This document shows positions 1,734 to 19,457 of a stretch of DNA of 36,891 bases, one piece after another (the stretch's first letter is position 1; each line of letters starts with the position of its first letter). A program made the position numbers and the translations under genes. The notes beneath the pieces were generated by a model that was given only the letters and a program-made list of their open reading frames with translations, ran no database searches and was not told the DNA's origin. Source of the stretch: Alphaproteobacteria bacterium (lineage in GTDB: Bacteria > Pseudomonadota > Alphaproteobacteria > GCA-2731375); NCBI GenBank assembly GCA_016869175.1, contig VGEV01000019.1, positions 1 to 36,891 on the forward strand. The letters run 5' to 3'.

Positions 1734-2254
1734 GCCGGCCACCAGCGATAGAGATGGTAGCGGCCGGCCGGCACCGCTGCCGGCAGCGGCTCTGCCTCAA
1801 GGCCCGGCAATGCCAGCGCCTGGTCGCTCGCCACGACCGCGCCCGCTCGCAGCAGCGCGATCAACGCCGCCGGCAACCAGGCGGCGAGCGCGGCGGTCGG
1901 GGCCCTCTCGCCACTGCCGAAATCGGCATGCGCCAGGGCCGCCGTGGCCCCCAGCCGGCGCGCCGCCGCCGGCAGGCTGTCGCGGAACTCGCCCAGGAAC
2001 AGGTGCGCCGCGTCCGGCACGCAATCGGGATGCGTGGCCACCTGGCGGTCGAACGCGAAGATCTCGCGCTCCGGCAGGATGGCGCGCAGATGATCGTAGC
2101 TGCGGCCGTTGCCCAGGCCCAGTTCCAGCACCGGCCCGGGCAGGTCGGCGACCAGCCTGGCCGCCTGTTCCAGGCAGGCGCGCTGGCCTTGCAGGCGGCG
2201 AATGGCGCTGTCGAGGCGGCTCAAGTCGGACGCACGACGCTCAGCCGCCGGCAC
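1730..2254 (-). CDS. Small class I SAM-dependent methyltransferase-like protein
   Basis: This 174-aa protein contains the SAM-binding motif I VLELGLGNGRSYDHLR at about residues 42-57, followed by an acidic strand end (IFAFDRQV) typical of motif II. The C-terminal half is Ala/Leu rich and ends RYHLYRWWPA. The protein is short for a methyltransferase (usually 200 or more), so it may have a minimal fold or act with a partner. The GTG start at 2254 overlaps the end of the cyclic-nucleotide-binding gene by 14 bp, and its stop overlaps the thioesterase start, so expression is likely coupled. The methyl acceptor is not predictable. Confidence 0.7.
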   Translation of the reverse strand: MPAAERRASDLSRLDSAIRRLQGQRACLEQAARLVADLPGPVLELGLGNGRSYDHLRAILPEREIFAFDRQVATHPDCVPDAAHLFLGEFRDSLPAAARRLGATAALAHADFGSGERAPTAALAAWLPAALIALLRAGAVVASDQALALPGLEAEPLPAAVPAGRYHLYRWWPA

Positions 2255-2705
2255 GCGCCAGCTTGGCGTTGGCCTCGCGCAACTGCACGTTCATCTGGTC
2301 GACGCGGCGGGCCAGTTCGCGCATGATCTCGACCGCCATCTCGGGAAACTCGCGCACCAACCGGAAGAACAGGTCCTTGCTGATCTTCAGCGTCTCCAGC
2401 CGTTTGGTCGCCTTGACCGTGGCCGTGCGCGGCACGTCGCACAGGATGGCGATCTCGCCGATGAAGGCGTTCTTGCCGACCTGCGCCACCACCAGGGGTC
2501 CGGTTGGCGACGCGATGATGATATCCGCGCCGCCGTCGATAATGACATAGGCGGCATCGCCCATGTCGCCCTGGCGGAACAGGTTCTGCCCCTCGGCGAA
2601 GGTCAGCCGTTCGCTGGTGAACGCCAGCAGCTTCAGCTTGGACAGCTCCAGCTTGGCGAACAGCGGGATGCTGCGCAGCAGTTCGACTTCCTCGTTGAGA
2701 CTCAT
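2241..2705 (-). CDS. Stand-alone cyclic nucleotide-binding domain protein
   Basis: This 154-aa protein is a single cNMP-binding beta-barrel domain without a DNA-binding domain. It shows GDxGDxAYVIIDGGADI in the middle and a phosphate-binding cassette near FIGEIAILCDVPRTATV (residues 81-97). Glu84 and Arg93 stand where cAMP- or cGMP-contacting residues sit in CRP-like barrels. The C-terminus is a helix with heptad-like spacing (about 115-150). It begins 21 bp after the stop of the large ABC protein and overlaps the methyltransferase gene. An obvious hypothesis is that it senses a cyclic nucleotide and controls the ABC protein, but the sequence does not prove that. Start ATG has AAGGGG upstream. 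Confidence 0.8.
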   Translation of the reverse strand: MSLNEEVELLRSIPLFAKLELSKLKLLAFTSERLTFAEGQNLFRQGDMGDAAYVIIDGGADIIIASPTGPLVVAQVGKNAFIGEIAILCDVPRTATVKATKRLETLKISKDLFFRLVREFPEMAVEIMRELARRVDQMNVQLREANAKLARAGG

Positions 2706-2726: not shown

Positions 2727-5381
2727 TTAGGCCGCATTGAGCAGCGCGTGGAGTCTGGTGTTTTCCTGGTTGAGCTCGGCGAAGCTGCCTTGCTCCACCA
2801 CCTTGCCCTTCTGCAGCACCAGCACCAGTTCGAAGCGGTTGGCCATGTCCGCGCGATGCGCCGACCAGATCACGCCGCGCCCGGCGAATTCGGTCAGCAG
2901 GCCATCCAGCAAGTGCTGTTGGCTGGCCGGGTCGAGCGCCGCCGTCGCCTCGGAGAGCACCAGCAGGTCCGGCCGCTTCATGACCGCGCGGGCCAACGCC
3001 AGCTTGATGCGCTGTTGGCTGCCCAGCCGCGTGGCGGCGATGCCGACCTGGAAGCCCAGGCCGACTTCCGCCACCTGCCGGCGCAGGCCCAGATCGTCGA
3101 TCACCTCGCGCAACAGCCGGCCGGCGCGTTCCTGCGCTTCCGCCTGGCCATAGGCCACTTTGCCGAACAGGATGTTGTCCTGCAGGTTGGCGGCCGCATT
3201 GTAGCGCTGGGCGTCGAAGAACTCGATGGCGCCCTTGAGCTGGGTCGGCAGTTCGGCCGCGAATGCGTGCCGGGCCGCCAGGATCTTGGCCTTCAGCGCC
3301 TCGTCGATCACCCCCAACCGATGGCGCGCCTGGACCAGCTTGAACGGCAACGACATCAGCCGCTTGCGGTCCTCCAGCGCAAGCCCGGCCAAGGCATTGC
3401 GGTCGGCCCGCTGCAACAGGGCTTGCGTCTCCGGCAGGTCGTCGGCGGCGATGAAGCTGAACTGCTGAAACAGCTCGTGGTCGGGCGGCAGGCCGGAGAA
3501 CAGCTCCACCATGGTGGAGCCGACCTGGAAGCCGGCCTGCAGGAAGGGCTCGACCAGCGAGACCCGCTCGAGCACCTGCAAGACATAGGGATGCTCGGCC
3601 AGCCGGTCGAGATTGAAGGCGTCGCCGACCGGGCTGCCGAACAGCAGATTCTCCGCGACCGAGGCGTTGTCGTTGAAACGGTCGCGGTCGAAGGCTTCGA
3701 CCAGCGGCGCCAGCGCCGGATCGGCCAGCCGCTCGCGCAGCCGCAACCTTGCCCGCAGCATGGCATCCGCCAAATCGCCGCGCTGGCCGGGATCGATCGT
3801 GCCGCGCAAGCCGAACTGATAGACGTCCTCGCCCATCCCCACCAGGTCGAGCACACGCAACGCCTGCACCTGCAGTTCCTCGCGGTCGGCGGCACCGGCC
3901 GACTCGTGATCGATCCAGTCGGCCTTGAGATCGAAATCGACGTTGCCGGACCGCTGTGCTTCCTGCACGTAGCGCCGCCGCTCGTTGGCTGCCTGGCCTT
4001 GGTACTTGCGCTCCGCGACCGGCCGGTGCATCAGGCCGAAATACAGGTTGTCGGCGATGCTGCCGGCGAAGATGTAGGGATTCTGCCCGACGAAGGCGAT
4101 GCGTCGGCCGGTCACCGCCTGCGGCAGCTTGGCGAACTCGAGTTCGCCGGCGGTGATCTGGCCGCGATCGGGGTCCAGCAGTCGGGCCAGCAGCAGGGCC
4201 AGTTCGTCCCGCCCGCCGCCCGCCGGACCGACCAGCGCCACATGCTTGTCCAGCGGCAGGCGGATCGACACGCCGTCCAGCACCGGATGGTCGTGATCGT
4301 CCTTCAGCACCAGGTTGGCGGCCTGCAGTTCGCCGACGAGCTGCGGCAGGCCGTCGGGTTCCTTGATCTGGCTGTCGGCATCGCGCATGCCGGAGGGATC
4401 GAACTGGCTGACGATCTGCTCGTACTTGACCGCCGCGTCCTGCTGCATCTCGTAATAGGCCAGCAGCTCCTTCCACGGCGCCGCCAGGTCCTTGTGCGCC
4501 GCGATGGCCGCGACCAGCGTGCCGATCTCCAGTTCGCCGTTGATCACCAGGTAGCCGCCAATGGAATAAAAGAAAAATGGTCCCAGCTGCTGGATGAAGT
4601 TGTTCAGCAGCTTGATCAGAAATTTCAGGTTGTAGATGCGAAACCGCAGCTCGAACATGTCATTGAGCTGCTGGGCAAACCCGGCCAGGAAATAGCGCGC
4701 GGTATCGTGCGCGTGGATTTCCTGCACGCCGGCCACGGTTTCGCCGATCCGGTCGCTCAATCGGCGGACCCGGCGGGTGCGCTCCTTGGAGAGCATGCGA
4801 ATCCGGCGCTGGATCTTGGGAATGAGCCAGAACTGGAAGGGATAGAGCATGACCGCGGCCACCGCCATGCGCCAGTCCTGCCAGACCAGGAAGCCCAGGA
4901 TGGTCAGCAGCGTGCCGCCCTGGAATGCCGGCAGGGCGAAAGCTTCGCCGACAAAGCCGCCAAGCGGCTCCACTTCGCCCACCACCATCGGGATGATCTC
5001 GCCCTGGCTCATGTGGCGGAAGGTGGGCAGCGGGAAGCGCAGCACGCGGCCGTACAATTCGAAGCGCATGCGCCGCAGCATGCGCTCGGCCGTGCGGCCC
5101 TTGTACACATTGATACAGTATTTGAATCCCTGATTGATCAACACCAGTGCCAAGAATACGCCGCACATGAAGAAAAGATACGAATATTGCTCCAATACTA
5201 TTCCAAATCCGATATCCATACTTCGAAACGGCTGCTTGGGAGCGATGGCCTGGTTGACGATTGTCTTAGGAACATCATAAGAAAAGTAGAGAAATGGAAA
5301 CGAAGCGGCGGCCATTAACGTCAGGATCACCTGATCTCTCAGGCTGAAGCGGGTGATATACCTGAAAAGCGAGCGTTCCAC
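2727..5381 (-). CDS. Non-canonical ABC exporter-like protein with large insertion in the ATPase domain
   Basis: The 884-aa protein starts with GTG at 5381 (GGAG nine bases upstream). Residues 1 to about 320 form an exporter-type membrane domain with several hydrophobic segments (about 17-37, 66-85, 155-190, 255-290). The ATPase domain is odd. Walker A reads GPAGGGRDE at 385-393, without the usual Lys-Ser/Thr. The Q-loop is at Gln433 (FVGQNP). The signature-like LGSQQR lies at 786-791 and Walker B is LLVLSEATAALD with Ser810 replacing Asp. The gap between Walker A and signature is ~400 residues instead of ~110. Three DN/EN-x-x-FG motifs occur, near 444-449, 577-582 and 735-740. ATP hydrolysis is doubtful. 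Base composition drops to ~43% GC over 5101-5340. First gene of the minus-strand operon; substrate unknown. Confidence 0.8.
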   Translation of the reverse strand: MERSLFRYITRFSLRDQVILTLMAAASFPFLYFSYDVPKTIVNQAIAPKQPFRSMDIGFGIVLEQYSYLFFMCGVFLALVLINQGFKYCINVYKGRTAERMLRRMRFELYGRVLRFPLPTFRHMSQGEIIPMVVGEVEPLGGFVGEAFALPAFQGGTLLTILGFLVWQDWRMAVAAVMLYPFQFWLIPKIQRRIRMLSKERTRRVRRLSDRIGETVAGVQEIHAHDTARYFLAGFAQQLNDMFELRFRIYNLKFLIKLLNNFIQQLGPFFFYSIGGYLVINGELEIGTLVAAIAAHKDLAAPWKELLAYYEMQQDAAVKYEQIVSQFDPSGMRDADSQIKEPDGLPQLVGELQAANLVLKDDHDHPVLDGVSIRLPLDKHVALVGPAGGGRDELALLLARLLDPDRGQITAGELEFAKLPQAVTGRRIAFVGQNPYIFAGSIADNLYFGLMHRPVAERKYQGQAANERRRYVQEAQRSGNVDFDLKADWIDHESAGAADREELQVQALRVLDLVGMGEDVYQFGLRGTIDPGQRGDLADAMLRARLRLRERLADPALAPLVEAFDRDRFNDNASVAENLLFGSPVGDAFNLDRLAEHPYVLQVLERVSLVEPFLQAGFQVGSTMVELFSGLPPDHELFQQFSFIAADDLPETQALLQRADRNALAGLALEDRKRLMSLPFKLVQARHRLGVIDEALKAKILAARHAFAAELPTQLKGAIEFFDAQRYNAAANLQDNILFGKVAYGQAEAQERAGRLLREVIDDLGLRRQVAEVGLGFQVGIAATRLGSQQRIKLALARAVMKRPDLLVLSEATAALDPASQQHLLDGLLTEFAGRGVIWSAHRADMANRFELVLVLQKGKVVEQGSFAELNQENTRLHALLNAA

Positions 5382-5482: not shown

Positions 5483-5598
5483 TAGTGGATCGGCTCAAAC
5501 GGATGCGCCCCATCCGTTTGGGCGGTCGATCCACTGCATCAATGGGTTGGTGGTTCGATTCAACCAACGCTTGGGAACCAAGCGTCGGCATCGAACCA
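5483..5598. repeat. Dispersed double-hairpin intergenic repeat, copy 1
   Basis: This 116-bp element matches 8197-8312 in the same orientation, with 95 of 116 positions identical in an ungapped hand alignment. It contains two nested hairpins. The first pairs AGTGGATCG (5484-5492) with CGATCCACT (5527-5535) around AAACGGATG/CATCCGTTT (5497-5505 and 5511-5519). The second pairs GTGGTTCGAT (5550-5559) with ATCGAACCAC (5590-5599) around ACGCTTGG/CCAAGCGT (5567-5574 and 5578-5585). The outermost eight bases, GCTAGTGG at 5481 and CCACTAGC at 5596-5603, are also inverted repeats. It fills most of the 300-bp divergent intergenic region 5382-5681, where I saw no clear promoter. Confidence 0.85.
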
Positions 5599-5681
5599 CT
5601 AGCGAGACGATAGCCGTTTTGCGGTTCCGGCCGGCCGCGGCGGCGTGCGATAGTGCCGGCAACAAGAAAGGGGACGGTAGC

Positions 5682-6929
5682 GTGAGCGAGGCAGCCGGCG
5701 GATCCCGCATCCTGATCTACAGTCACGATTCTTTCGGGCTTGGTCACCTGCGCCGCTGCCGGACGATCGCGCATAGCCTGGTGGAACGCTATCGCAACCT
5801 GTCGGTGCTGATTCTGTCCGGGTCGCCGATCATCGGCAGTTTCGACTTCCGCAGCCGGGTGGATTTCGTGCGCGTGCCGGGCGTCATCAAGCTGCGCAAC
5901 GGCGAGTACACCTCGCTGTCGTTGCATATCGGCATCGAACAGACGTTGGCCTTGCGCGCCCACATCATCGAGCAGACGGCCGAGGTCTTCGCGCCCGACG
6001 TGTTCATCGTCGACAAGGAGCCGCTTGGCCTGCGCGGCGAGGTGCATCGGACCTTGCAGCAGTTGAAGCAGCGCGGCGCCCGGTTGGTGCTGGGTCTGCG
6101 CGACGTGATGGACGAGCCCAAGAGTCTCGCGCCGGAATGGCGGCGCAAGAATGTGATGCCCGCCTTGCGGTCGCTCTATGATGAAATCTGGGTCTACGGC
6201 CTGCCGCAGGTCTGCGATCCGCTGGACGGCTTGGCGGTGCCCAAGATGGTGCGCAACAAGATCGTCTACACCGGCTACTTGCATCGCACGCTGCCGGTGC
6301 CGCGGGCGCGCCACCGCCTGCCGGACCTGACCCAGCGGCCCTACATCCTGGTAACGCCGGGCGGCGGCGGCGACGGCGAGCGGCTGATCGAGTGGGTGTT
6401 GCGCGCCTACGAGGCGCAGCCGCGCATGCCGTATCCGGCGCTGCTGGTGCTGGGCCCGTTCATGCGGCCCGAAAAGCAGGCCGAGTTCATGCGGCGGACG
6501 GAACGGCTGAACAACGTCGCGGCGATCACCTTCGATGCCCAGATCGAGGAATTGGAAGCCAACGCCGCGGGCGTGGTGGCGATGGGCGGCTACAACACCT
6601 TCTGCGAGATCCTGAGCCTGAACAAGCCGGCCATCATGGTCCCGCGCACCCGGCCGCGCATGGAGCAGTATCTCCGCACCGCCCGGGCGCAGGAATTGGG
6701 GCTCGCGCGCATGCTGGAAGACGACGGGACGTTGGATGCTGGCGTCATGGCCGCGGCCTTGCGCCTGCTGCCGTTCCAGAGCAAGCCCTCGGATGTGGTC
6801 ATTCCCGGGCTGTTGGAGGGCCTGCACAACGTCAACCGACTGGTCGAGCCGTGGCTGGGCGCGGTGGCCGTGCCAGCCGAAACCGAGGGCAGGGTCGCCG
6901 GCCGGCTCGCGCTGGTCGATGGCAAATAG
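5682..6929 (+). CDS. Glycosyltransferase of the COG4671 (MurG-like, GT-B) type
   Basis: This 415-aa protein resembles predicted glycosyltransferases of COG4671, with a GT-B fold and a nucleotide-sugar donor. The N-terminus has ILIYSHDSFGLGHLRRC, the family's glycine/histidine acceptor loop. The C-terminal domain contains LVTPGGGGDGE and GGYNTFCEIL, the donor-binding region as in MurG-like enzymes. I chose the GTG at 5682 because AAAGGGG stands 8-10 bases upstream and homology begins directly after it; an ATG at 5547 in frame would place the first 45 codons inside the repeat element. The stop overlaps the start of the next glycosyltransferase (11 bp), so the two are coupled. Sugar and acceptor are unknown. 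A paralogue lies at 10201. Confidence 0.8.
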   Translation: MSEAAGGSRILIYSHDSFGLGHLRRCRTIAHSLVERYRNLSVLILSGSPIIGSFDFRSRVDFVRVPGVIKLRNGEYTSLSLHIGIEQTLALRAHIIEQTAEVFAPDVFIVDKEPLGLRGEVHRTLQQLKQRGARLVLGLRDVMDEPKSLAPEWRRKNVMPALRSLYDEIWVYGLPQVCDPLDGLAVPKMVRNKIVYTGYLHRTLPVPRARHRLPDLTQRPYILVTPGGGGDGERLIEWVLRAYEAQPRMPYPALLVLGPFMRPEKQAEFMRRTERLNNVAAITFDAQIEELEANAAGVVAMGGYNTFCEILSLNKPAIMVPRTRPRMEQYLRTARAQELGLARMLEDDGTLDAGVMAAALRLLPFQSKPSDVVIPGLLEGLHNVNRLVEPWLGAVAVPAETEGRVAGRLALVDGK

Positions 6930-8199
6930 GACAGCGGGCGCCGTCGCGTTCGTGCTCAAGGGCTATCCGCGACTGTCGGAGAGCTTCATCGCGCAGGAAA
7001 TCCTGGCGCTGGAACGGCGGGGCCTGGATATCCGCATCGTCTCGCTGCGCCGTCCGACCGAGCGCAAGCGCCATCCGGTGCACGCCGCGATCCGGGCGTC
7101 GGTGCTCTATCTGCCGGAATATCTCTATCGCGAGCCGCTGCGCGTGCTGGGTGCCTGGTGGCGGCAGCGGCGCAATCCGCGCTATCCGGCCGCGCGGCGT
7201 CAATGGCTTAAGGATTGGCGGCGCGATCCCAGCCCCAATCGCGGCCGGCGGTTCGCGCAGGCACTGGTCCTGGCCGACGAGCTGAGCCCGGAGATCGGCC
7301 ATCTGCACGCGCATTTTCTGCACACCCCGGCCTCCGTCACCCGCTACGCGGCGCTGCTGACCGGGCTGGCCTGGAGCGGTTCGGCGCATGCCAAGGACGT
7401 CTGGACCACGCCCGATTGGGAGCTCCGCGAGAAGTTGGCCGACTGCCGCTGGCTGGCGACCTGCAGCGCCGCGGCGCTGGCACGCCTGGCGACCTTGGCC
7501 CCGGAGGCGAACCGCCGGCCGACCGTCACCCTCAGCTATCACGGCCTCGACCTCGACCGGTTTGCGCCGGGTCGGCCGCCGCCGGCGGCGCGCGACGGCA
7601 GCGATCCGGGGGAGCCGGTCCGGCTGCTGACCGTCGCCCGGGCCGTGCCGAAAAAGGGCTACGAGGATCTGCTGACGGCGCTCGCCCAATTGCCGCCGAC
7701 GGTGCACTGGCGGCTGACGCAGGTCGGCGGCGGGCCGCGCCTCAAACGCCTGCGCCGGCTCGCGGATCGGCTCGGCCTCGCGGCACGCATCGACTGGCGC
7801 GGCAACGGCACGCAGGACGAAGTGCTGGGCCACTACCGGCAGGCCGACCTGTTCGTGCTGGCCAGCCGGATCGCGCCGGATGGCGACCGCGACGGCTTGC
7901 CGAACGTGCTGCTGGAGGCGCAGAGCCAGGGGCTCGCCTGCCTGGCGACCGCCGTCTCGGCCATTCCGGAACTGATCGAGCCGGAGGTGACAGGCGTGCT
8001 GGTGCCGGCCGGGCAGCCGGCGGCCCTGGCCCAGGCAATGGCGCGTCTGCTTGCCCAGCCGGCGTTGCGGGCACGGCTGGGCCTGGCCGGCCAGGCGCGC
8101 GTCGTCGAACGTTTCGACCAGGCCCGGCTGATTGGCGAACTCGCCGCCCGTTTCGGCCTGCCGCCGCCGGTCGCTCGGCGTGACCGGGTCAGCGCCTAG
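6919..8199 (+). CDS. Glycosyltransferase family 4 (WcaL/AmsK-like)
   Basis: This 426-aa GT-B enzyme starts AVAFVLKGYPRLSESFIAQE, the opening typical of GT4 enzymes near colanic-acid WcaL and amylovoran AmsK. The middle has SAHAKDVW, an acceptor-side motif. The donor domain shows LLTVARAVPKKGYEDLLTAL, then EAQSQGLACLATAVSAIPEL (about residues 331-350), which carries the E-x7-E-like retaining motif region. The ATG at 6919 lies inside the end of the preceding gene. The stop codon TAG (8197-8199) is the first three bases of repeat copy 2, so the native C-terminus may have been altered by arrival of the repeat. Probably acts in exopolysaccharide or glycolipid assembly at the inner membrane. Confidence 0.85.
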   Translation: MANRTAGAVAFVLKGYPRLSESFIAQEILALERRGLDIRIVSLRRPTERKRHPVHAAIRASVLYLPEYLYREPLRVLGAWWRQRRNPRYPAARRQWLKDWRRDPSPNRGRRFAQALVLADELSPEIGHLHAHFLHTPASVTRYAALLTGLAWSGSAHAKDVWTTPDWELREKLADCRWLATCSAAALARLATLAPEANRRPTVTLSYHGLDLDRFAPGRPPPAARDGSDPGEPVRLLTVARAVPKKGYEDLLTALAQLPPTVHWRLTQVGGGPRLKRLRRLADRLGLAARIDWRGNGTQDEVLGHYRQADLFVLASRIAPDGDRDGLPNVLLEAQSQGLACLATAVSAIPELIEPEVTGVLVPAGQPAALAQAMARLLAQPALRARLGLAGQARVVERFDQARLIGELAARFGLPPPVARRDRVSA

Positions 8200-8384: not shown

Positions 8385-8480
8385 ACGACAATCATGGGAT
8401 TGCGCGTGTCCCGTTGATTGCGAAGTGGGCATGAGAGTGGCCGCATGGACTTGCGAGCTTCGCAATCGGGACGCCAGGGC

Positions 8481-9605
8481 ATGCGCATCGCGTTCTACGC
8501 CCCGATGAAGTCGCCCCACCATCCGGTGCCGTCGGGCGACCGGCGCATGGCGCGGCTGCTCTGGCAGGCGCTCGCCATGGCCGGGCACCAGCCGATGTTG
8601 GCTTCCCAGTTCCGCGGCTTCTCCGCCACGCCCGAATGCCAGGCGGCGCTGCGACAGCAGGGCGCGCTCGAAGCGGCGCGGCTCTTGGCGGCCTATCGCC
8701 TGCAGCCTGACCCGCCGGCGGCCTGGTTCACCTATCATCTGCACTACAAGGCGCCCGATTGGCTCGGCCCGGCCGTGACCGGCGGCTTGAACATTCCCTA
8801 TCTGGTCGCCGAGGCGTCGTTCGCGCCCAAGCGCGCCGGCGGTCCCTGGGATTTGGGCCACCGCGCGGCCGAGGCGGCGTTGCGCAGCGCGGATGCCATA
8901 TTCTGCCTCACCCGGCTCGATGCGCGCTGCGTGGCGCCGCTGGTTCAGCCACCGCGTCGACTGCTGGCCTTGCCGCCGTTCCTGGACGGGCCGCCGGCGC
9001 CTCTGCCGCCGCGCGGCGGCGCCCGTGCGGCCTTGGCCCGACGCTTCGGCCTGCCGGAAGCGGCGGTATGGCTGCTGGCGGTCGCCATGCTGCGCACCGG
9101 CGACAAGCTGGCCTCATACGCCCGGTTGGCGGCTGCGCTCGGCCGGCTTGGCGGCCTCGACTGGCGCCTGCTGGCGGTCGGCGGCGGACCGGCGGAGGCG
9201 GCGGTGCGGGCGCTGTTTTCCGCCGACCTGGCGGGCCGCGTGACGTTCCTTGGGCAGCAAGCTGCGCCGGCCTTGGCCGAATGCTACGCGGCCGCCGATA
9301 TCTATGTCTGGCCCGGCGTCGGCGAGGCCTACGGCATGGCCTATCTGGAAGCGCAGGCGGCCGGGCTGCCGGTGGTGGCGGGGGCGGAACGCGGCGTGCC
9401 AGAGGTCGTGCTGGCGGAGGAAACCGGCCTGCTCACAGCCCCTGGCGACGATGCCGCCTTTGCCGACGCCATCCGCCGGCTGGCGACCGACAATGGCCTC
9501 AGGCGCCGCCTTGGCGCGCGCGCGCGGGACTTCGCGTTGAACGAACGCCATTCGGGGCGAGCGGCGGCGATCCTGGACGACGCCCTGCGCGGGCTGCGCC
9601 GATGA
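8481..9605 (+). CDS. Glycosyltransferase family 4-like protein
   Basis: This 374-aa GT-B protein opens MRIAFYAPMKSPHHPVPSGD, with SGDRRMARLL as acceptor-side loop. The donor domain has LLAVAMLRTGDKLASYARL, VTFLGQQ, AAADIYVWPGVGEAYGMAYL and EAQAAGLPVVAGAERGVPE, the GT4 nucleotide-sugar site with its acidic residues. I chose the ATG at 8481 because typical homology starts there; an in-frame ATG at 8445 would add 12 residues and neither has a strong ribosome site. It is the first gene of the nine-gene chain; its TGA overlaps the next ATG (ATGA at 9602-9605). Confidence 0.8.
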   Translation: MRIAFYAPMKSPHHPVPSGDRRMARLLWQALAMAGHQPMLASQFRGFSATPECQAALRQQGALEAARLLAAYRLQPDPPAAWFTYHLHYKAPDWLGPAVTGGLNIPYLVAEASFAPKRAGGPWDLGHRAAEAALRSADAIFCLTRLDARCVAPLVQPPRRLLALPPFLDGPPAPLPPRGGARAALARRFGLPEAAVWLLAVAMLRTGDKLASYARLAAALGRLGGLDWRLLAVGGGPAEAAVRALFSADLAGRVTFLGQQAAPALAECYAAADIYVWPGVGEAYGMAYLEAQAAGLPVVAGAERGVPEVVLAEETGLLTAPGDDAAFADAIRRLATDNGLRRRLGARARDFALNERHSGRAAAILDDALRGLRR

Positions 9606-10201
9606 CCCTTCTGGCATTGCTGCGCCATGGCGCCACGGAATGGAACGCGGCCGGACGTCTGCAGGGCCGCGCTGACCCACCGCTGCTGGCCGCCGCGCGC
9701 CTGGCCTTGGCCGAGCGCTGCCTGCCCCGGTGTCTGGCCGGCGCCTGCTGGCATGTCAGCCCGCTGCGCCGCGCGGCCGAGACGGCGGGGCTGCTCGGCG
9801 GCGCCCCGCTGCGGCTCGAACCGCGCCTTGTCGAACTCGATTTCGGCGCCTTCGAGGGCCGCCGCCTCGTCGACCTGCGCCGCGACCCGGACGCCGCCAT
9901 GGCCGCGAACGAAGCGCGCGGCTTGGATTTTCAACCCCCCGGCGGCGAGAGCCCCCGGCAATTGCGCGATGGGCGCCTCAGGCCCTGGCTGGCGGAGCTG
10001 AGCGCCGCCGGCGGCTGGCATGTGGCGGTCACCCACAAGACCCCGATCCGAGTGATGCTGACGCTGGCCTGCGACTGGCCGCTGCTGGGCAAGCCGCCCG
10101 TCCGGCTCGACTGGGATTGCCTGCAGCTCTTCTGGCTGGAAGCCGGCGGCGCGCCCCGGCCTTTGCGGTTCAACCTGCCGCTTGCTGAGAGAGCGACCTG
10201 A
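9602..10201 (+). CDS. Histidine phosphatase family protein (phosphoglycerate mutase-like)
   Basis: This 199-aa protein has the phospho-histidine motif LRHGATEWN (residues 7-15; His9), the partner arginine region SPLRRAAETA, the acid-base region LVELDFGAFEG, and the second catalytic histidine in AVTHKTPIR. It is in the same superfamily as CobC/alpha-ribazole phosphatase and PhoE. Placed between glycosyltransferases, it most likely removes phosphate from a sugar phosphate or glycan intermediate rather than acting in glycolysis, but that is inference. The start overlaps the preceding gene by 4 bp and the stop shares one base with the next ATG (TGATG). Confidence 0.85.
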   Translation: MTLLALLRHGATEWNAAGRLQGRADPPLLAAARLALAERCLPRCLAGACWHVSPLRRAAETAGLLGGAPLRLEPRLVELDFGAFEGRRLVDLRRDPDAAMAANEARGLDFQPPGGESPRQLRDGRLRPWLAELSAAGGWHVAVTHKTPIRVMLTLACDWPLLGKPPVRLDWDCLQLFWLEAGGAPRPLRFNLPLAERAT

Positions 10202-11358
10202 TGGCAGGGCGCGTGCTGTTCTATGTGCAGCATCTGCTGGGCATCGGGCACCAGCGGCGCGGCGCCACGCTGACCCGGGCGATGCGCCGCGCCGGTCTGG
10301 AGGTCACCTTCGTCTCCGGCGGGCACGAGATCCCCAACCTGGACCTGGCCGGCGCCGAATTGGTGCAGCTTCCGGCGACGCGCGCGGTCGACCTCTACTT
10401 CAAGGAACTGGTGGACGAGAACGACCTGCCGATCGACGAGGCCTGGCGCAACCGCCGGCGCGACCTGTTGCTGGAGACCTGGCGGCGGGTCAGGCCCGAC
10501 CTGTTGCTTTTCGAGCTGTTCCCGTTCGGCCGGCGGCAGATGCGTTTCGAACTGCTGCCGCTAATCGAGGCGGCAAGGGCGAGCCGGCCGCGGCCGCTGA
10601 TCGTCTCCTCGGTGCGCGACATCCTGGTGGCGCAGCCCAAGCCCGCGCGCAACGACGAGATCCTGGCGCTGGTCGAACGCCATTTCGATCGCGTCCTGGT
10701 GCACGGCGATTCGGCATTTATCGCCCTCGACCGGACCTTCCCGCATGCCCGGCGCATCGCCGACAAGCTGCACTACACGGGCTACGTGGTCGACGAGAGC
10801 GGCGAGCGCGGCGCCGGCGGCGATGGCCAGGGCGAGGTGCTGGTCTCCTCCGGCGGCGGCGCGGTCGGGCTCAAGCTGTTGCAGGCTGCAATGGCCGGCC
10901 GCGCCATGAGCGGCCTGCGCACGCGGCCCTGGCGGGTGCTGGCCGGCTTGCGCATGAGCGATGGCGAATTTGCCGACCTCAGCGCGATGGCGCCGCCGGG
11001 AGTACTGGTGGAGCGGGCCCGTGGCGATTTTCCCAGCCTGTTGATGCATTGTCATCTGTCGATCAGCCAGGCCGGCTACAACACGCTGATGGAGGCGATG
11101 CGGGCCGGCTGCCGAGCGGTCGTCGTGCCCTATGCCGGCGGGCTGGAGACCGAGCAGACCCTGCGCGCCCGCCTGCTGGCGGCGCGTTCGTCCTTGCAGG
11201 TGGTGGAGGAGGCCGCCCTGGACGCCGCCAGCATCGCCGCGGCCGCCGACCGTGCCAATGCCCTGCCGCCGCTCGACCGGGCCGGGCTCAAGACCGATGG
11301 CGCCGGCCGCTCGGCGCAATTGCTGGGCGAGTGGCTGGCGGCTCGGTGCCAGCCATGA
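10201..11358 (+). CDS. Second COG4671-type glycosyltransferase
   Basis: This 385-aa protein is a paralogue in architecture of the product of 5682-6929. It opens RVLFYVQHLLGIGHQRRGAT, the same acceptor-loop pattern (GLGH/GIGH followed by RR). It continues with SVRDILVAQ, and its donor domain includes VLVSSGGGAVG, ISQAGYNTLMEAM and a nearby Pro-Tyr-Ala-Gly-Gly segment, like the MurG donor pocket. No signal peptide or membrane span is evident, so it should work on the cytoplasmic face. It is coupled to the phosphatase upstream (TGATG) and to the deacetylase-like gene downstream (ATGA at 11355-11358). Donor and acceptor cannot be told. Confidence 0.8.
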   Translation: MAGRVLFYVQHLLGIGHQRRGATLTRAMRRAGLEVTFVSGGHEIPNLDLAGAELVQLPATRAVDLYFKELVDENDLPIDEAWRNRRRDLLLETWRRVRPDLLLFELFPFGRRQMRFELLPLIEAARASRPRPLIVSSVRDILVAQPKPARNDEILALVERHFDRVLVHGDSAFIALDRTFPHARRIADKLHYTGYVVDESGERGAGGDGQGEVLVSSGGGAVGLKLLQAAMAGRAMSGLRTRPWRVLAGLRMSDGEFADLSAMAPPGVLVERARGDFPSLLMHCHLSISQAGYNTLMEAMRAGCRAVVVPYAGGLETEQTLRARLLAARSSLQVVEEAALDAASIAAAADRANALPPLDRAGLKTDGAGRSAQLLGEWLAARCQP

Positions 11359-12125
11359 GCCCCGTCTGGCAGGGGCTGGCCCAGGAACTGGCGCTCTGGC
11401 GCCAGGCCGGCCGGATCGCCACCTTCTGGTGGCGCGATGACGATGCCGGGCCGCTGGAGCCGGCCTTGGAGCGGCTGCTGGCGCTGCGGGCAAGCTTGTC
11501 GCTGCCGCTGGCTTTGGCGGCCATTCCGGCGGTGACGGAGCCCGAGCTGGCGCAACGGCTGGCGGCGGAGGACGAGATCGTCGTGTTGCAGCATGGCTGG
11601 CGGCATCGCAACCTGGCCGGAGCCGGCCGGCGCAAGGCCGAGTTCGGCGCCGACCGGCCGGTGTTCGAGCGTCTGAGCGACGTGGCCCTGGGCCGTGCCC
11701 AGCTGTTGGCCCAGTTCGGCGAACGTTTCCTGCCGGTATTCGTGCCGCCCTGGAACCGCATCGGCGACGATCTGCTGCCGTTCCTCAAGAATGCCGGCAT
11801 GGTCGGCCTGTCGCGCTACCGGGGGCGGGCCAAGCCGAGCCCGGCCCCGGGCCTGACCGAGAGCAACTGCCATGTCGATCCGGTGGCCTGGACGGGCCAT
11901 CGCGGCTTCGTCGGCCGGGCGGAAGCCGTGCGGCAGATGGTCGGCCACCTGTCGGCGCGGCGCACCGGCGCCGCCGATCCGGATGAGCCAACCGGCATCC
12001 TGAGCCACCACCGGCAGTTCGATGCGGCATGTTGGGAATTCGTCGAGAATCTGTTGCGAATGCTGCGGCAATGTGATGAAGCGCACTGGTTGAGCGCGCG
12101 TCGAATGTTTAGTGTCGCGCCGTGA
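11355..12125 (+). CDS. Polysaccharide deacetylase-like (NodB-related) protein
   Basis: This 256-aa protein carries elements of the carbohydrate esterase 4 fold. WWRDDDAG (Asp28-Asp30) matches the catalytic/metal motif 1, LQHGWRHRN (His80, His84) matches the H-x3-H metal motif, and VFVPPWNRI (130-136) matches motif 3. A late His-rich segment GILSHHRQFD may supply the final catalytic histidine. No signal peptide is visible, unusual for an enzyme acting on exported polysaccharide, so it may act on a lipid-linked or nucleotide-linked sugar in the cytoplasm. Overlaps both neighbours by 4 bp. Confidence 0.75.
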   Translation: MSPVWQGLAQELALWRQAGRIATFWWRDDDAGPLEPALERLLALRASLSLPLALAAIPAVTEPELAQRLAAEDEIVVLQHGWRHRNLAGAGRRKAEFGADRPVFERLSDVALGRAQLLAQFGERFLPVFVPPWNRIGDDLLPFLKNAGMVGLSRYRGRAKPSPAPGLTESNCHVDPVAWTGHRGFVGRAEAVRQMVGHLSARRTGAADPDEPTGILSHHRQFDAACWEFVENLLRMLRQCDEAHWLSARRMFSVAP

Positions 12126-12628
12126 CGATTCATGCCTATCCGTTTCGCGCCCTGCTTGCCGACTACGGCCGCGCCGTGTGCGGTTTGGCATTGACCGTGC
12201 TGCCGCTGCTGACCGAGGAGGTGGTGCCCGGTTTGGCCTATGCGCTGGCCGGGCTGGCGAGCGTGTTTGCCGCCTTCGGGCTGCGCACCGGCTTGCGGCA
12301 CGCCGGCCGGCTCGAGCTGAGCGCGACCGGCTTGCGTTGGAACGGCCCGCTTGCCAAGACGATTGCCTGGAACGAGCTGTCAAGCGTCGACTTGCGCTAT
12401 TTCTCCACCCGCCGCGATCGCGGCCAGGGCTGGATGCAGCTCGACCTGCGCGGATCGCGCGGCACCATCAGGCTGGAATCCACGCTGGAAGGGTTCAGCC
12501 AGGTTGCCGCCCGGTGTTTCGAGGTGGCGCGCGAACGGCAATTGCCGTTGCGCGAGGCGGCACTGACGAACCTGCGTTCGCTGGCTCCGGAGCAGTCGAT
12601 CAACGGCCCCCGATGGTCGACGTCCTGA
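12122..12628 (+). CDS. Membrane protein of unknown function with C-terminal PH-like region
   Basis: This 168-aa protein has two likely membrane segments (about residues 14-33 and 36-54, short loop between). A soluble part follows with the pattern ELSATGLRWNGPLAKTIAWNELSSV, which resembles bacterial PH-like domains of small membrane proteins. The match is by pattern only. The GTG start at 12122 overlaps the deacetylase stop, and the gene overlaps the importer ATPase start by 16 bp, so it sits at the join between the glycan enzymes and the importer. The role is unknown; a membrane adaptor is one possibility. Confidence 0.6.
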   Translation: MTIHAYPFRALLADYGRAVCGLALTVLPLLTEEVVPGLAYALAGLASVFAAFGLRTGLRHAGRLELSATGLRWNGPLAKTIAWNELSSVDLRYFSTRRDRGQGWMQLDLRGSRGTIRLESTLEGFSQVAARCFEVARERQLPLREAALTNLRSLAPEQSINGPRWSTS

Positions 12629-14490
12629 CGGTTCGCGATCTGGCGGTGCACTTTCGGGTTGCCGAAGGCATCGTCAAGGCGGTCGACGGGATCAGCTTCG
12701 TCGTGCCGCAAGGCCGCACCGTCGCACTGGTCGGCGAGTCCGGTTCGGGCAAGACCGTGGTCAGCCAGAGCATCCTGCGCATCCTGCCCGAGGCGGCGGA
12801 GATCGCGCGCGGCGAGATCCTGCTGGCCGACCCCGGCAAGCGGCAGGCGCCGATCGACGTCGTCAAGCTGGACCCCAACGGCCGGCCGATGCGCCAGCTG
12901 CGCGGCGGCTCGGTCTCGATCATCTTCCAGGAACCGATGACCTCGCTGTCGCCGCTGCATACCATCGGCGACCAGATTTCCGAGGCGCTGTTCCTGCACC
13001 GCGAGGTCGATCGGCGCGGCGGCCTGGAGCTGACCGCCGAGATGCTGCGCATGGTCGGCTTCCCGAGCCCGAAAGAGGCGCTGAGCCGCTATCCCTTCGA
13101 GCTTTCGGGCGGCCTTCGCCAGCGCGCGATGATCGCCATGGCGCTGATCTGCCGGCCGGCCCTGCTGATCGCCGACGAGCCGACCACCGCGCTCGACGTC
13201 ACCATCCAGGCGCAGATCCTGAAGCTGATTGCCGACCTGCAGAAAGAACTGAACATGGCGGTGCTGATCATCACGCACGATCTGGGCGTGGTGGCCAACG
13301 TCGCCGACGAAGTGGTGGTGATGTATCACGGCCGCATCATGGAAAAAGGGCCGGTCGACGCCATCTTCCACGATCCCCAGCATGCCTATCTGAAGGCGCT
13401 GATGCGGGCGGTGCCGCGCTTCGGCATGCGGCCCGGCGAACGGCTGACGCCGTTGCGCGAGATCACCGCCAGCGCCGGGCGCCTGCTGCGCCAGAAGGAA
13501 CCGTGGCCGACCGACCAGACGCAGAACGCCCCGCTGCTGGAAGTCGCCGGCCTGGGCAAACGCTACAGCCTGCGCAAGCGCGGCCTGTTCGCCCGCGCCG
13601 CGGGCGGCCGCGAGACCGTGGCGGTCGATGATGTCAGCTTCCATATCGAACGCGGCGAGTGCTTGGGCCTGGTCGGCGAATCGGGCTGCGGCAAGACCAC
13701 CACCTCGAAGATGATCATGCGGGCGATGGAACCCGACAGCGGCAGCATCCGGTTCAACGACCACGGCCGCGTGGTCGATGTGTTGGGCCTGCGCGACGCC
13801 GAGCTGACGCGCTATCGCCGCAAGGTGCAGTTCATCTTCCAGGATCCCTATTCTTCGCTGAACCCGCGCATGACGGTGTTCGACCTGCTGGCCGAACCGC
13901 TGCTGATCCATGGCATCGGTGACCAAGCGGAGCGGATCGAGCGGGTCAGTGAGCTGATGGCGCTGGTTGGCCTCGACCCGCGCTATCTGCGCCGCTATCC
14001 GCACAGTTTCTCGGGCGGCCAGCGGCAACGTATCGGCATCGCCCGGGCACTGGCGCTGCAACCCGATCTGTTGATCTGCGACGAGCCGGTGTCGGCGCTC
14101 GACGTCTCGGTGCAGGCGCAGGTTCTGAACCTGCTGAAAGACCTGCAGGACCAGCTCGGCCTGACCTATCTGTTCATCTCGCACAATCTGGCGGTGGTGG
14201 ACTACATCGCCGACCGCATCGCGGTGATGTGCGCCGGCCGGCTGGTCGAGCTGGCCCCCAAGGAAGCACTGTTCCGCGAGCCGCAGCATCCCTACACCAA
14301 AGCCCTGCTGTCGGCGGTGCCAAAGGCGGATCCGCACGACAAGCTCAATCTCAGCCTGTTGATGGAAGGTCGAGCTTCCGAGCCGTCCGCCTGGCCGGAA
14401 CCGTTCGCCCTGAACAACGGCAGGCCGGCGCACTTGCGCGACCTGGGCGGCGGCCATTTCGTGCGGCTGCAGGAAGGGGCTCGGCTGTGA
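12613..14490 (+). CDS. ABC importer ATPase with two fused nucleotide-binding domains (DppD-DppF/YejF type)
   Basis: This 625-aa protein contains two complete ATPase domains of the peptide/nickel/oligosaccharide importer class. Domain 1 has Walker A GESGSGKT (residues 41-48, Lys47), signature LSGGLRQR and Walker [13 protein letters not shown]. Domain 2 has Walker A GESGCGKT (355-362, Lys361), signature FSGGQRQR and Walker [13 protein letters not shown]. Both domains end in the class-specific tail with [11 protein letters not shown] or [11 protein letters not shown]. Unlike the exporter at 2727-5381, all catalytic motifs are intact. It powers the importer formed with the next three gene products. 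The start overlaps 12122-12628 and the stop overlaps the binding-protein GTG. Confidence 0.93.
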
Positions 14491-16394
14491 GACCGCGCCG
14501 CTGTCTTGCCGCCTGGCTGCTGCTGGGCCTGGCCTGCGGGGTGCCGGCGGAAGCGGGCGGCTATGTCGAGGTTCCCTCGTTGCAGGCCCAGGTCGAGTCT
14601 GGCGCCTTGCCGCCGGTATCGGAGCGGTTGCCGCAACTCCCGGCGTTGGCCCGCTTCGTTGGCGAAGGGCGCGGGATGGGGCAGCATGGCGGCGAGCTGC
14701 GCACGCTGATCGGCCGGGCCAAGGACGTGCGCATGCTGGTGGTCTATGGCTACGCGCGGCTTGTGGCCTATGACGAGTCGTTCGACCTGGTTCCCGACAT
14801 CCTGGCCGATTTCGAGAGCCATGAGGATCGCGCCTTCACGCTGCGCCTCAGGCCTGGCCACCGCTGGTCGGACGGCCAGCCGTTCACCGCCGAGGACATC
14901 CGCTATTGGTGGGAGGATGTCGCCAACAACAAGGAGCTGTCGCCGGCCGGACCGCCGCCGGAAATGCTGGTCGCGGGCAAGCCGCCGCAATTCGAGCTGT
15001 TGGATGCGACCACCGTGCGCTTCACCTGGCCGGCGCCCAACGCGTCCTTCCTGCCGCGCCAGGCCAGCGCCTCGCCGCTGTTCATCTACCGGCCCGCGCA
15101 TTATCTGAAGCAGTTCCATGCCCGCTTCGCCGAGCCGGACAGGCTGGCCCGCGCGGTCAAGGAGCGCCGCGTGCGCAACTGGGCCGCGCTGCATAACCGG
15201 CTGGACAATCTCTATGACTTCGACAATCCCGATCTGCCCACCTTGCAGCCGTGGTCGAACCGCACCGCGCCGCCGGCGACACGGTTTGTCGCCGAACGCA
15301 ATCCCTTCTACCACCGGGTGGACGAGGCCGGCCGGCAACTGCCCTATCTCGACCGGGTGATCATGAACGTGGCGGACGCCAAGCTGATTCCGGCCAAGAC
15401 CGGGGCGGGCGAGACCGACCTGCAGGCCCGCGGCCTGGCCTTCAACAACTACACCTTCCTGCGCGACAACGAGGAACGCAGCGGTTTTCGCACCCACCTC
15501 TGGCGCACCGCCAAGGGCGCGCACGTGGCGCTGTTCCCCAATCTCAACGTCAACGACCCGGTCTGGCGCCAGCTCATCCGCGATGTGCGCTTCCGCCGCG
15601 CGCTGAGCCTGGCGGTGGATCGGCCGATCATCAACCGCTCGCTCTATTTCGGACTGGCGCTCGCCGGCAACAACACCGTGCTGCCGGGCAGCCAGCTGTT
15701 CAAGCCGGACTACCAGACGCGCTGGGCGGGGTTCGACCCGGACGCCGCCAACCGGCTGCTGGACGAACTCGGCTTGCGCAAGCGCAACCGCGAGGGCGCG
15801 CGGCTGCTGCCGGATGGTCGGCCGCTGGAAATCGTCATCGAGACCGCCGGCGAGGACACCGAGCAGACCGACGTGCTGGAATTGGTGCGCGAATCCTGGT
15901 CCGAGATCGGCGTCAAGGTCTTCGCCAAGCCAACCCAGCGCGAAGTGTTCCGCAACCGTGTCTTCTCGGGCGCCACGGTGATGGCGGTGTGGAGCGGCTA
16001 CGAAAACGGGCTCTGCACGCCGGACATGAACCCGCAGGAACTTGCCCCGACTTCGCAGCAGCAATTGCAATGGCCCAAATGGGGCCAGTATGCCGAATCC
16101 GGCGGGAAGCAGGGCGAAGCGCCCGACCTGCCGGAAGCGATCCGGCTGGCCGAGCTGGCGACGGCCTGGCTTGCGGCCGGCAGCGTCGCCGAGCGCCGCC
16201 GGATCTGGCACGAGATGCTGGAGATCCACGCCGACCAGGCGTTCAGCATCGGCATTGTCTCTGGCGTCAAGCAGCCGGTCGCGGCGCGGACCAATCTGCG
16301 CAATCTGCCCGAGGAGGGCGTCTATAACTGGGATCCCGGTGCGCATTTCGGGCTCTACCGTCCCGACACCTTCTGGCTCGACGGGCGCGGCTGA
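14487..16394 (+). CDS. Periplasmic substrate-binding protein, family 5 (peptide/oligosaccharide type)
   Basis: This 635-aa protein has a signal peptide (CLAAWLLLGLACGVPAEA, cleavage near residue 24) and the SBP_bac_5 body. Recognisable pieces are LRPGHRWSDGQPFTAEDIRYW early on, and DVRFRRALSLAVDRPIIN in the middle with the family's central motif. It is longer than DppA-like proteins (~530), as in YejA and in oligosaccharide-binding members. It captures the ligand for the permeases at 16399 and 17421. The GTG at 14487 overlaps the ATPase stop. Peptides, murein peptides or oligosaccharides are all possible ligands; the glycan-enzyme context favours a saccharide but does not prove it. Confidence 0.88.
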   Translation: MRPRRCLAAWLLLGLACGVPAEAGGYVEVPSLQAQVESGALPPVSERLPQLPALARFVGEGRGMGQHGGELRTLIGRAKDVRMLVVYGYARLVAYDESFDLVPDILADFESHEDRAFTLRLRPGHRWSDGQPFTAEDIRYWWEDVANNKELSPAGPPPEMLVAGKPPQFELLDATTVRFTWPAPNASFLPRQASASPLFIYRPAHYLKQFHARFAEPDRLARAVKERRVRNWAALHNRLDNLYDFDNPDLPTLQPWSNRTAPPATRFVAERNPFYHRVDEAGRQLPYLDRVIMNVADAKLIPAKTGAGETDLQARGLAFNNYTFLRDNEERSGFRTHLWRTAKGAHVALFPNLNVNDPVWRQLIRDVRFRRALSLAVDRPIINRSLYFGLALAGNNTVLPGSQLFKPDYQTRWAGFDPDAANRLLDELGLRKRNREGARLLPDGRPLEIVIETAGEDTEQTDVLELVRESWSEIGVKVFAKPTQREVFRNRVFSGATVMAVWSGYENGLCTPDMNPQELAPTSQQQLQWPKWGQYAESGGKQGEAPDLPEAIRLAELATAWLAAGSVAERRRIWHEMLEIHADQAFSIGIVSGVKQPVAARTNLRNLPEEGVYNWDPGAHFGLYRPDTFWLDGRG

Positions 16395-16398
16395 AGCG

Positions 16399-17424
16399 AT
16401 GCTCACCTACCTGGTCCAGCGCTTCCTGATCATGATCCCGACGCTGCTGGTGATCAGCGTTATCACCTTCATCATCATCCAGCTTCCGCCCGGCGACTAT
16501 CTGTCCAACCAGATGGAGGAGCTGCGGGCGCAAGGCGACACGGCGGCGCTGGAGAAGATTGACTTTCTGCGCAAGGAATACGGCCTCGACCGGCCGCTCC
16601 TGGAACAATATGCCATCTGGCTCGGCATCTGGCCGGGCGACAACGGCTTCTCCGGCGTGCTGCAAGGCGATTTCGGCTGGTCGTTCGAGTATCAGCGCCC
16701 GGTCAACGAGGTGGTCGGCGAGCGCATGCTGCTGTCGTTCGTGCTCAATTTCCACGTCGTGCTGTTCACCTATCTCGTCGCCTTCCCGATCGGTGTCTAC
16801 ACGGCGATCCGGCAATACAGTCTGTCCGACTACACGATGACGCTGGTCGGCTATCTCGGCCTGGCCACGCCCAACTTCCTGCTGGCGCTGATCCTGCTCT
16901 GGCTGACCAACCGCTATTTCGGCGTGTCGATCGGCGGCCTGATGGACGAGCAGTATATCGGCCAGCCGTGGAGCTGGGCCAAGCTTGTCTCGGTCATGCA
17001 GCACCTGGCCATACCGGTCATCGTGATCGGCACCTCGGGCACCGCCGCCATGATCCGTCGGCTGCGCGCCAATCTGCTGGACGAGTTGCAGAAGCAGTAT
17101 GTCGTCACCGCCCGCGCCAAGGGCCTGCCGCGCCGGCGGGCCTTGATCAAGTATCCCTTGCGCATGGCGCTCAACCCGTTCATCGCCGATATCGGCAACC
17201 TGTTGCCGCAGATGATCTCGGGCTCCGCCATCGTCGCCGTGGTGATGTCGCTGCCGACCTCGGGCCCGATGCTGGTGCATGCGTTGCAGAGCCAGGACCA
17301 GTATCTGGCCGGCTCGTTCCTGTTGTTCCTGTCCTGCCTGACGGTGGCCGGCATGTTCCTGTCGGATGTCGCGCTGGCCGTGCTCGATCCCCGCATCCGC
17401 ATGGGCGCCGAAGCGCAACGATGA
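16399..17424 (+). CDS. ABC importer permease, DppB-like
   Basis: This 341-aa inner-membrane protein starts LTYLVQRFLIMIPTLLVISV, followed by IQLPPGDYL, the classic first transmembrane segment of DppB-like permeases. FGWSFEYQRPVNEVVGER precedes the core. The coupling-loop motif lies near QKQYVVTARAKGLPRRRALI, where it docks on the ATPase. About six membrane segments are visible. The region around residues 30-70 carries an extra segment that I associate with oligosaccharide members of this permease class. The ATG follows the binding-protein stop by 4 bp and the stop overlaps the next start. Confidence 0.9.
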   Translation: MLTYLVQRFLIMIPTLLVISVITFIIIQLPPGDYLSNQMEELRAQGDTAALEKIDFLRKEYGLDRPLLEQYAIWLGIWPGDNGFSGVLQGDFGWSFEYQRPVNEVVGERMLLSFVLNFHVVLFTYLVAFPIGVYTAIRQYSLSDYTMTLVGYLGLATPNFLLALILLWLTNRYFGVSIGGLMDEQYIGQPWSWAKLVSVMQHLAIPVIVIGTSGTAAMIRRLRANLLDELQKQYVVTARAKGLPRRRALIKYPLRMALNPFIADIGNLLPQMISGSAIVAVVMSLPTSGPMLVHALQSQDQYLAGSFLLFLSCLTVAGMFLSDVALAVLDPRIRMGAEAQR

Positions 17425-18584
17425 ACGCGGTGCCGCCCGCCAGCCCGCGCTGGGTCAGCCCGGATCCGTTCGATCCGTATTCCGTCGAGCGCCTGACGCC
17501 CGAGCAGGAGCGCTTTTATCTCGCCTCGGCCGGCCGGCTGATGTGGTGGAAGTTCCGCCGCCACAAGGTGGCGGTGGTGGCGGCGGCGTTCCTGATCGTT
17601 CTCTATTTCGCCGTCGCCTTCGCCGAATTCGCCGCGCCCTATCCGCTGGCCAAACGGCACGCGGACCACATCTACGCGCCGCCGCAAGGCGTGCACCTGT
17701 TCCACGAAGGCAGCTTCGTCGGTCCCTTTGTCTATCCCTACGCCGCCAAATTGGAACTGCGCACGCTGCGCTGGATCTATGAACAGGACCCCAGCCGGCC
17801 GCAGCCGCTGCGCTTCTTCTGTCTCGGCGACCGCTATGCCTTCTGGGGTCTGGTCGAGATGCGTTTCCATCTGTTCTGCCCGCCGACCGACGGCACCGTC
17901 TTCCTGCTCGGCACCGACCGGCTGGGCCGCGACATCTTCAGCCGCATCATTTATGGCGGACGCATCTCGCTGACCGTCGGCCTGGTCGGCATCGCCATCA
18001 GCTTCGTCATCGCCATGACGCTGGGCGGCCTCGCCGGCTATTACGGCGGCTGGACCGACAACGTGGTGCAGCGGCTGATCGAGATGATCCGCTCGTTCCC
18101 CGAACTGCCGCTGTGGATGGCCTTGTCGGCTGCCCTGCCCGTCACCTGGAGCCCGCTGGCGGTGTTCTTCGGCATCACGGTGATCCTGGGCCTGCTGGAC
18201 TGGCCGGGCCTGGCGCGCGCCGTGCGCTCCAAGCTCTTGTCCCTGCGCGAGGAGGATTTCGCCACCGCCGCGCGCCTGATGGGGGCCAGCCCCGGCCGCA
18301 TCATCCGCCGCCATCTGCTGCCCAATTTCATGAGCCACATCATCGCCAGCCTGACGCTGTCGATCCCCTCGATGATCCTGGGCGAGACGGCGCTGTCCTT
18401 CCTGGGGCTGGGCCTCAGGCCGCCGATCACCTCGTGGGGCGTGCTTCTGAACGAAGCGCAGAACATCAACGCCGTGGCGGTCTATCCCTGGCTGATCCTG
18501 CCGATGGCGCCGGTCATCCTGACCGTGCTCGCCTTCAACTTCCTGGGCGACGGCCTGAGGGACGCCGCGGATCCCTACAAATAG
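17421..18584 (+). CDS. ABC importer permease, DppC-like
   Basis: This 387-aa protein is the second permease. It has an N-terminal cytoplasmic part, a first span at about 50-72, then a long ~120-residue periplasmic segment before FLLGTDRLGRDIFSRIIYGG, the family's conserved motif. The coupling loop is at EEDFATAARLMGASPGRII, and the C-terminus has NFLGDGLRDAADPY, typical of DppC. The long insert is larger than in DppC (~300 aa) and suggests a special ligand or partner. It is the last gene of the chain; 18585-18652 holds the arsenic promoter. No clear terminator was found after it. Confidence 0.9.
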   Translation: MNAVPPASPRWVSPDPFDPYSVERLTPEQERFYLASAGRLMWWKFRRHKVAVVAAAFLIVLYFAVAFAEFAAPYPLAKRHADHIYAPPQGVHLFHEGSFVGPFVYPYAAKLELRTLRWIYEQDPSRPQPLRFFCLGDRYAFWGLVEMRFHLFCPPTDGTVFLLGTDRLGRDIFSRIIYGGRISLTVGLVGIAISFVIAMTLGGLAGYYGGWTDNVVQRLIEMIRSFPELPLWMALSAALPVTWSPLAVFFGITVILGLLDWPGLARAVRSKLLSLREEDFATAARLMGASPGRIIRRHLLPNFMSHIIASLTLSIPSMILGETALSFLGLGLRPPITSWGVLLNEAQNINAVAVYPWLILPMAPVILTVLAFNFLGDGLRDAADPYK

Positions 18585-19439: not shown

Positions 19440-19457
19440 GCCGGCGCCGCCTGACAC

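Follow-up and report, generated by a model that had tools for sequence, protein, structure and literature searches.

The locus examined here raises the question of what an ABC exporter-like protein does when its Walker A, Walker B, and signature motifs are all altered and its nucleotide-binding domain (NBD) carries a long insertion. The window, by which we mean the whole stretch of 36,891 nucleotides of alphaproteobacterial DNA that was analyzed, encodes such a protein together with a cyclic-nucleotide-binding (CNB) domain protein and a set of glycosyltransferases (Table 1).

Table 1. Features of the window, in window positions, with the residues of the ABC protein where they apply (TMD, transmembrane domain).
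Feature	Coordinates	Strand	Residues or remarks
SAM methyltransferase PF12692	1730..2254	-	downstream of CNB gene
CNB-domain protein, cassette GEIAILCDVPRTAT	2241..2705	-	154 aa; directly downstream of ABC gene
ABC exporter-like gene	2727..5381	-	884 aa, GTG start, stop counted in
TMD	4362..5381	-	residues 1-340; Pfam ABC_membrane at 64-293
NBD and insert	2730..4349	-	residues 345-884
Altered Walker A	4203..4229	-	residues 385-393, GPAGGGRDE
Helical unit copy 1, carries Q-loop	3702..4106	-	residues 426-560
DNLYFG motif	4035..4052	-	residues 444-449
Helical unit copy 2 (extra)	3231..3701	-	residues 561-717
ENLLFG motif	3636..3653	-	residues 577-582
Helical unit copy 3, carries signature	2982..3230	-	residues 718-800
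DNILFG motif	3162..3179	-	residues 735-740
Altered signature LGSQQ	3012..3026	-	residues 786-790; family consensus L[ST]xAQ
Altered Walker B LLVLSE	2949..2966	-	residues 806-811, including Ser810
GT28-like glycosyltransferase, divergent	5547..6929	+	extent of the listed ORF; gene probably starts later
GT4-type glycosyltransferase	6736..8199	+	extent of the listed ORF; gene probably starts near 6919
Second GT4-type glycosyltransferase	8418..9605	+	
Histidine-phosphatase domain	9611..10105	+	
Second GT28-like glycosyltransferase	10201..11358	+	

Domain assignment and predicted fold

Pfam assigned ABC_membrane (PF00664; E 2.7e-24, above the gathering score) and ABC_tran to the ABC protein, and nothing else. 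The top curated family was MsbA_lipidA (TIGR02203; E 5e-61), with a score of 206.9 bits that lies below the 602-bit curated cut-off, a value that few alphaproteobacterial MsbA-like proteins reach either (3 of 58 genomes). Members of the family are named in databases as generic ABC transporters only, and several MsbA-like proteins are encoded in the source genome of the window. Our search of the open-access literature found no study of this family.

The single-chain AlphaFold model of the ABC protein had a mean pLDDT of 86.6, and values exceeded 90 over most of the NBD and insert. Residues 345-882 of the model superposed on the ComA NBD over its full length of 239 residues (1.7 Å, Z 28.4), and the NBD fold is complete in this prediction. 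The search of solved structures gave, among the matches listed, ordinary ABC transporters that aligned in separate stretches; SUR chains were among the fold matches.

Alterations of the ATP site

The initial annotation had described a Walker A stretch without Lys or Ser/Thr, a Ser in place of the Walker B Asp, and a distance of about 400 residues between Walker A and the signature. All of these were recovered: residues 385-393 read GPAGGGRDE, Ser810 replaces Asp within LLVLSE, and 401 residues separate positions 385 and 786. The same distance was 104 residues in 25 of 25 alphaproteobacterial control sequences, these being the members of a set of 30 MsbA-like proteins of the class in which both motifs were readable, and an insertion of approximately 297 residues is therefore indicated. 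The annotation had also made its reading depend on the absence of canonical motifs elsewhere in the protein, and neither a P-loop nor an LSGGQ-like motif occurs anywhere along it. Homologues are likewise non-canonical, with Walker A (GxxGxGK[ST]) and Walker B (hhhhDE) found together in 0 of 79 relatives. Recent decay in one genome is ruled out by this last count, and a sequencing artifact is ruled out by full-length open frames in approximately 80 distinct relatives.

In the family alignment, 47 of the 81 sequences have Lys at the P-loop Lys position and 31 have Arg. Asp or Glu stands where the Mg-binding Ser/Thr would be expected in 68/81 (84%), an acidic replacement that, judged from its frequency, looks like a retained alternative and not random decay. 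Asn or Ser stands at the Walker B Asp position in 59/81, with Asp retained in 9/81; the Glu that follows is kept in 50/81 and the switch His is present in 26/81. Given the retention of this Glu and of the P-loop Lys, nucleotide binding or slow hydrolysis would still be possible. In one sub-clade (L089-L092) the P-loop has been lost entirely.

A helical unit in three copies

The three (D/E)N-x-x-FG motifs that had been noted previously begin at exactly residues 444, 577, and 735. None of 20,000 shuffles of the window protein contained at least two copies of [DE]N-x-x-FG, and the motif Asn was invariant at each of the three sites in 81/81 family sequences. It had been suggested that the helical segment after the Q-loop was copied into the insert. 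Family profiles of segments 426-560, 561-717, and 718-830 were compared with one another alongside 18 control segment pairs. Copies 2 and 3 matched with 97.7% probability (E 2e-12), copies 1 and 2 with 89% (E 2e-6, 22 columns), and copies 1 and 3 with 59% (E 9e-5, 58 columns), while the control pairs reached 5.7% at most. By profile comparison the Q-loop/helical segment is threefold, in agreement with that suggestion; the two alignments involving copy 1 are short or gapped, so that its homology depends mainly on the Q-loop/DNxxFG element.

Against an MsbA profile spanning the Q-loop to Walker B, copy 1 matched at the Q-loop (91%), copy 3 matched from the helical domain across the signature into Walker B (99.4%), and copy 2 barely matched (6.9%). 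These matches place the beginning of an ordinary NBD in copy 1 and its resumption in copy 3. On this profile evidence, copy 2 and the elongated portion of copy 1 are the material inserted between the NBD halves.

Distribution and conservation of the family

Relatives (E <=1e-90) were found in 97 of 289 sampled alphaproteobacterial genomes, about a third, including Rhizobium and Sinorhizobium. Similar long proteins in other Alphaproteobacteria had been mentioned in the initial annotation, and long relatives do occur throughout the class. Among 398 genomes sampled across the phylum, 28 had a match and all were Alphaproteobacteria; spread beyond the class is ruled out for this sample, in which 0 out-of-class genomes matched. 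Two matches carry other labels, L021, a MAG assigned to Gammaproteobacteria, and L026, a fragment assigned to Phycisphaerae; both may be misbinned.

The TMD is the most conserved portion of the ABC protein. Entropy in the family was 1.12 bits for the TMD, 1.48 for the NBD core, and 1.53 for the insert, an order that is the reverse of that in MsbA of the same class (TMD 1.73, NBD 1.04 bits). The two sets were comparable in mean pairwise identity (0.47 and 0.51). Relatives consisting of the TMD only were also identified (WP_109153184 and WP_009820143), with approximately 39-42% identity to residues 1-342. Such TMD-only relatives stand beside azurin-like proteins in copper-resistance clusters at L122 (7770-9029) and L123 (7773-9077).

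A partner gene with a cyclic-nucleotide-binding domain

The CNB gene was adjacent to the ABC gene in 71 and fused to it in 9, that is, in 80 of 84 unique loci, the adjacent cases being 70 counted automatically plus L059, where the CNB ORF overlaps the ABC ORF. A CNB gene was not found at 4 of the 84 unique loci. The partner in the window matches the PF00027 cassette pattern GE...PR[TS]A with GEIAILCDVPRTAT, and across the family Gly83, Arg93, and Ala95 of the cassette are conserved in 75/75 and Glu84 in 72/75. The Thr of its PRTAT stretch is presumably compatible with cAMP or cGMP.

In the fused forms the CNB domain lies at the C-terminus of the ABC protein. These forms group together on the TMD tree with two changes at most, which points to one or two fusion events, and independent fusions are thus ruled out as repeated evidence. 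The cassette of the fused sub-clade L089-L092 reads RQLN, RPLN, RALD, and RRLD in place of RTAT, and it was noted that P-loop and CNB cassette have both drifted there. At L007, one of the 4 loci without a CNB gene, insertion-sequence-like genes, repeated in the stretch, occupy the usual CNB place after the ABC gene (9600-16500), and the similarity of the ABC gene to the window protein stops at residue 843.

Class III cyclase domains were detected in 96 of the 97 carrier genomes compared with 92 of the 192 other genomes, in a carrier comparison that ignores phylogeny and with cyclase counts that track lineage and genome size. The median number of class III cyclase matches in carrier genomes was at least 10, individual counts being capped near 11; among cyclase-positive genomes of 2.7-4.8 Mb it was at least 9 in carriers versus 2 in others. 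The sole carrier without a cyclase match (G108) is also without a CNB gene at its ABC locus, which is a single case. At L077, the locus of this same genome, a glycerophosphodiester phosphodiesterase-like gene (2154-2870; named by eye from its sequence) stands at the usual CNB place.

Glycosyltransferase neighborhood

Among the 71 loci with sufficient upstream sequence, GT28-like homologues were present at 48 and GT4 homologues at 48, divergent from the ABC gene every time. In Rhizobium, Shinella, and S. meliloti, like glycosyltransferases lie directly upstream and are co-directional with the ABC gene. A glycosyltransferase match was absent at 18 of the 71 loci, all fused forms among them, and a glycoconjugate substrate may for this reason not be general. 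Of 73 loci, 37 have a relative of the PF12692 methyltransferase further downstream, encoded on the same strand. The gene pRL110056 has been reported as an O-antigen gene required for root colonization (PMC11103875); it could be a member of the rhizobial operon, but the tag numbers are unmappable and it was excluded from the evidence.

Beyond the glycosyltransferase cluster, the window carries genes of an Opp/Dpp-type peptide importer (12112-18584; fused ATPases, SBP_bac_5, and two permeases), and a similar peptide importer lies upstream of the rhizobial cluster. An ArsR-like HTH gene followed by an MIP/aquaporin gene (18653-20132) is possibly an arsenic-response pair.

Interpretation

The initial annotation had proposed that the protein may be an ATP-binding or inactive regulator and not a conventional pump. 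The sequence gives good support to the view that this is no conventional pump, while a purely inactive regulator is disfavored. The CNB partner, the glycosyltransferase operon, the inverted conservation, and the TMD-only relatives, all of them absent from that annotation, argue for a membrane pathway under cyclic-nucleotide control over a purely inactive regulator. Our main reading, to which we give a probability of roughly 0.45 on these sequence features, is that the protein would have an ABC exporter fold, would be controlled by a cyclic nucleotide through its CNB partner, and would serve a glycoconjugate, without being a conventional ATPase pump.

How such a pathway would work is our inference, from the dimer and its contact to the CNB partner through the ligand and the gating to transport itself and its substrate. 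Two subunits would form the usual exporter-type transmembrane pathway, with their NBDs, enlarged by the extra helical units, serving as a coupling scaffold. Binding of cAMP or cGMP by the partner would shift the NBD/coupling-helix layer, and the shift would open the pathway, close it, or hold it in one state. A glycoconjugate from the neighboring glycosyltransferases would then pass through the pathway or be flipped. A narrower version, argued by analogy and in our judgment rather doubtful, would have the ABC-fold pathway operate without ATP hydrolysis, gated by cyclic nucleotide via the partner, as a counterpart of SUR and CFTR in principle and not by descent, with the NBD-free relatives as its end point.

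The same retained residues that would allow slow hydrolysis bear on a different account, in which the protein is an ATP-powered exporter with unusual chemistry, ATP binding or slow hydrolysis flips a glycolipid, and the CNB protein merely modulates. This account draws on the Lys or Arg in the P-loop, the Walker B Glu, and the switch His where they occur, on the complete NBD fold of the model, and on the rank of MsbA_lipidA as top curated family. We consider it unlikely, however, given the acidic Mg-binding position, the scarcity of the Walker B Asp, the altered signature, an NBD less conserved than the TMD, and the disappearance of the P-loop in L089-L092.

It is improbable that the protein is a sensor or regulator without transport, acting as a receptor that reports the glycoconjugate or envelope state either to its CNB partner or to the glycosyltransferases. 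CNB proteins normally take their signal from cyclases, and no output, kinase, or DNA-binding domain is present in the ABC and CNB pair, even though the altered ATP site, the small stand-alone partner, and the strongly conserved TMD would all suit such a role. Very unlikely is a degenerate half of a heterodimeric exporter with its other half-transporter encoded elsewhere, since, although heterodimeric exporters often have degenerate sites (PMC7756269, a review) and the genome itself encodes several MsbA-like proteins, an adjacent ABC exporter gene is absent in the annotated rhizobial loci and the Walker motifs and signature are both altered, so that in a heterodimer neither composite site would be spared, unlike the usual one-site pattern.

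Should a cyclic nucleotide gate the ABC protein, these bacteria would have a non-transcriptional target for their many class III cyclases. Our main reading, if true, would also provide a test case for an exporter fold without ATP hydrolysis in which a helical subdomain has been multiplied.

Comparison with known systems

The protein resembles MsbA and the type IV (ABCB-like) exporters in its ABC_membrane TMD, its predicted NBD fold, and its glycosyltransferase neighbors, and the family differs from them in the altered Walker A, Walker B, and signature, in the long insert, and in the CNB partner. MsbA2 of S. meliloti (SMb21191) also has glycosyltransferases upstream (PMC3687685, PMC12239276). 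It is ruled out as the same gene, because the msbA2 operon lies near 938 kb on pSymB and the family member at 841.7-844.4 kb.

HetC of Nostoc is likewise an ABC exporter linked with a CNB domain, in this case an N-terminal one that binds ppGpp; it also has a C39 peptidase, and a catalytic residue of its ATPase is essential (PMC10986499). In contrast, the present family has a separate or C-terminal CNB domain, an altered ATP site, and no peptidase. A HetC-type peptidase exporter is ruled out by the absence of a C39 domain from the window protein in Pfam. The TMD-only relatives of the copper clusters differ from the window protein in that they have neither an NBD nor a CNB neighbor and are surrounded by copper genes.

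No sequence or domain sign places the window protein among the SUR and CFTR proteins (ABCC), in which one hydrolytic site is retained. What it may share with them, in the analogy proposed here, is the working principle only, namely an exporter fold that has taken on the role of a regulator or channel.
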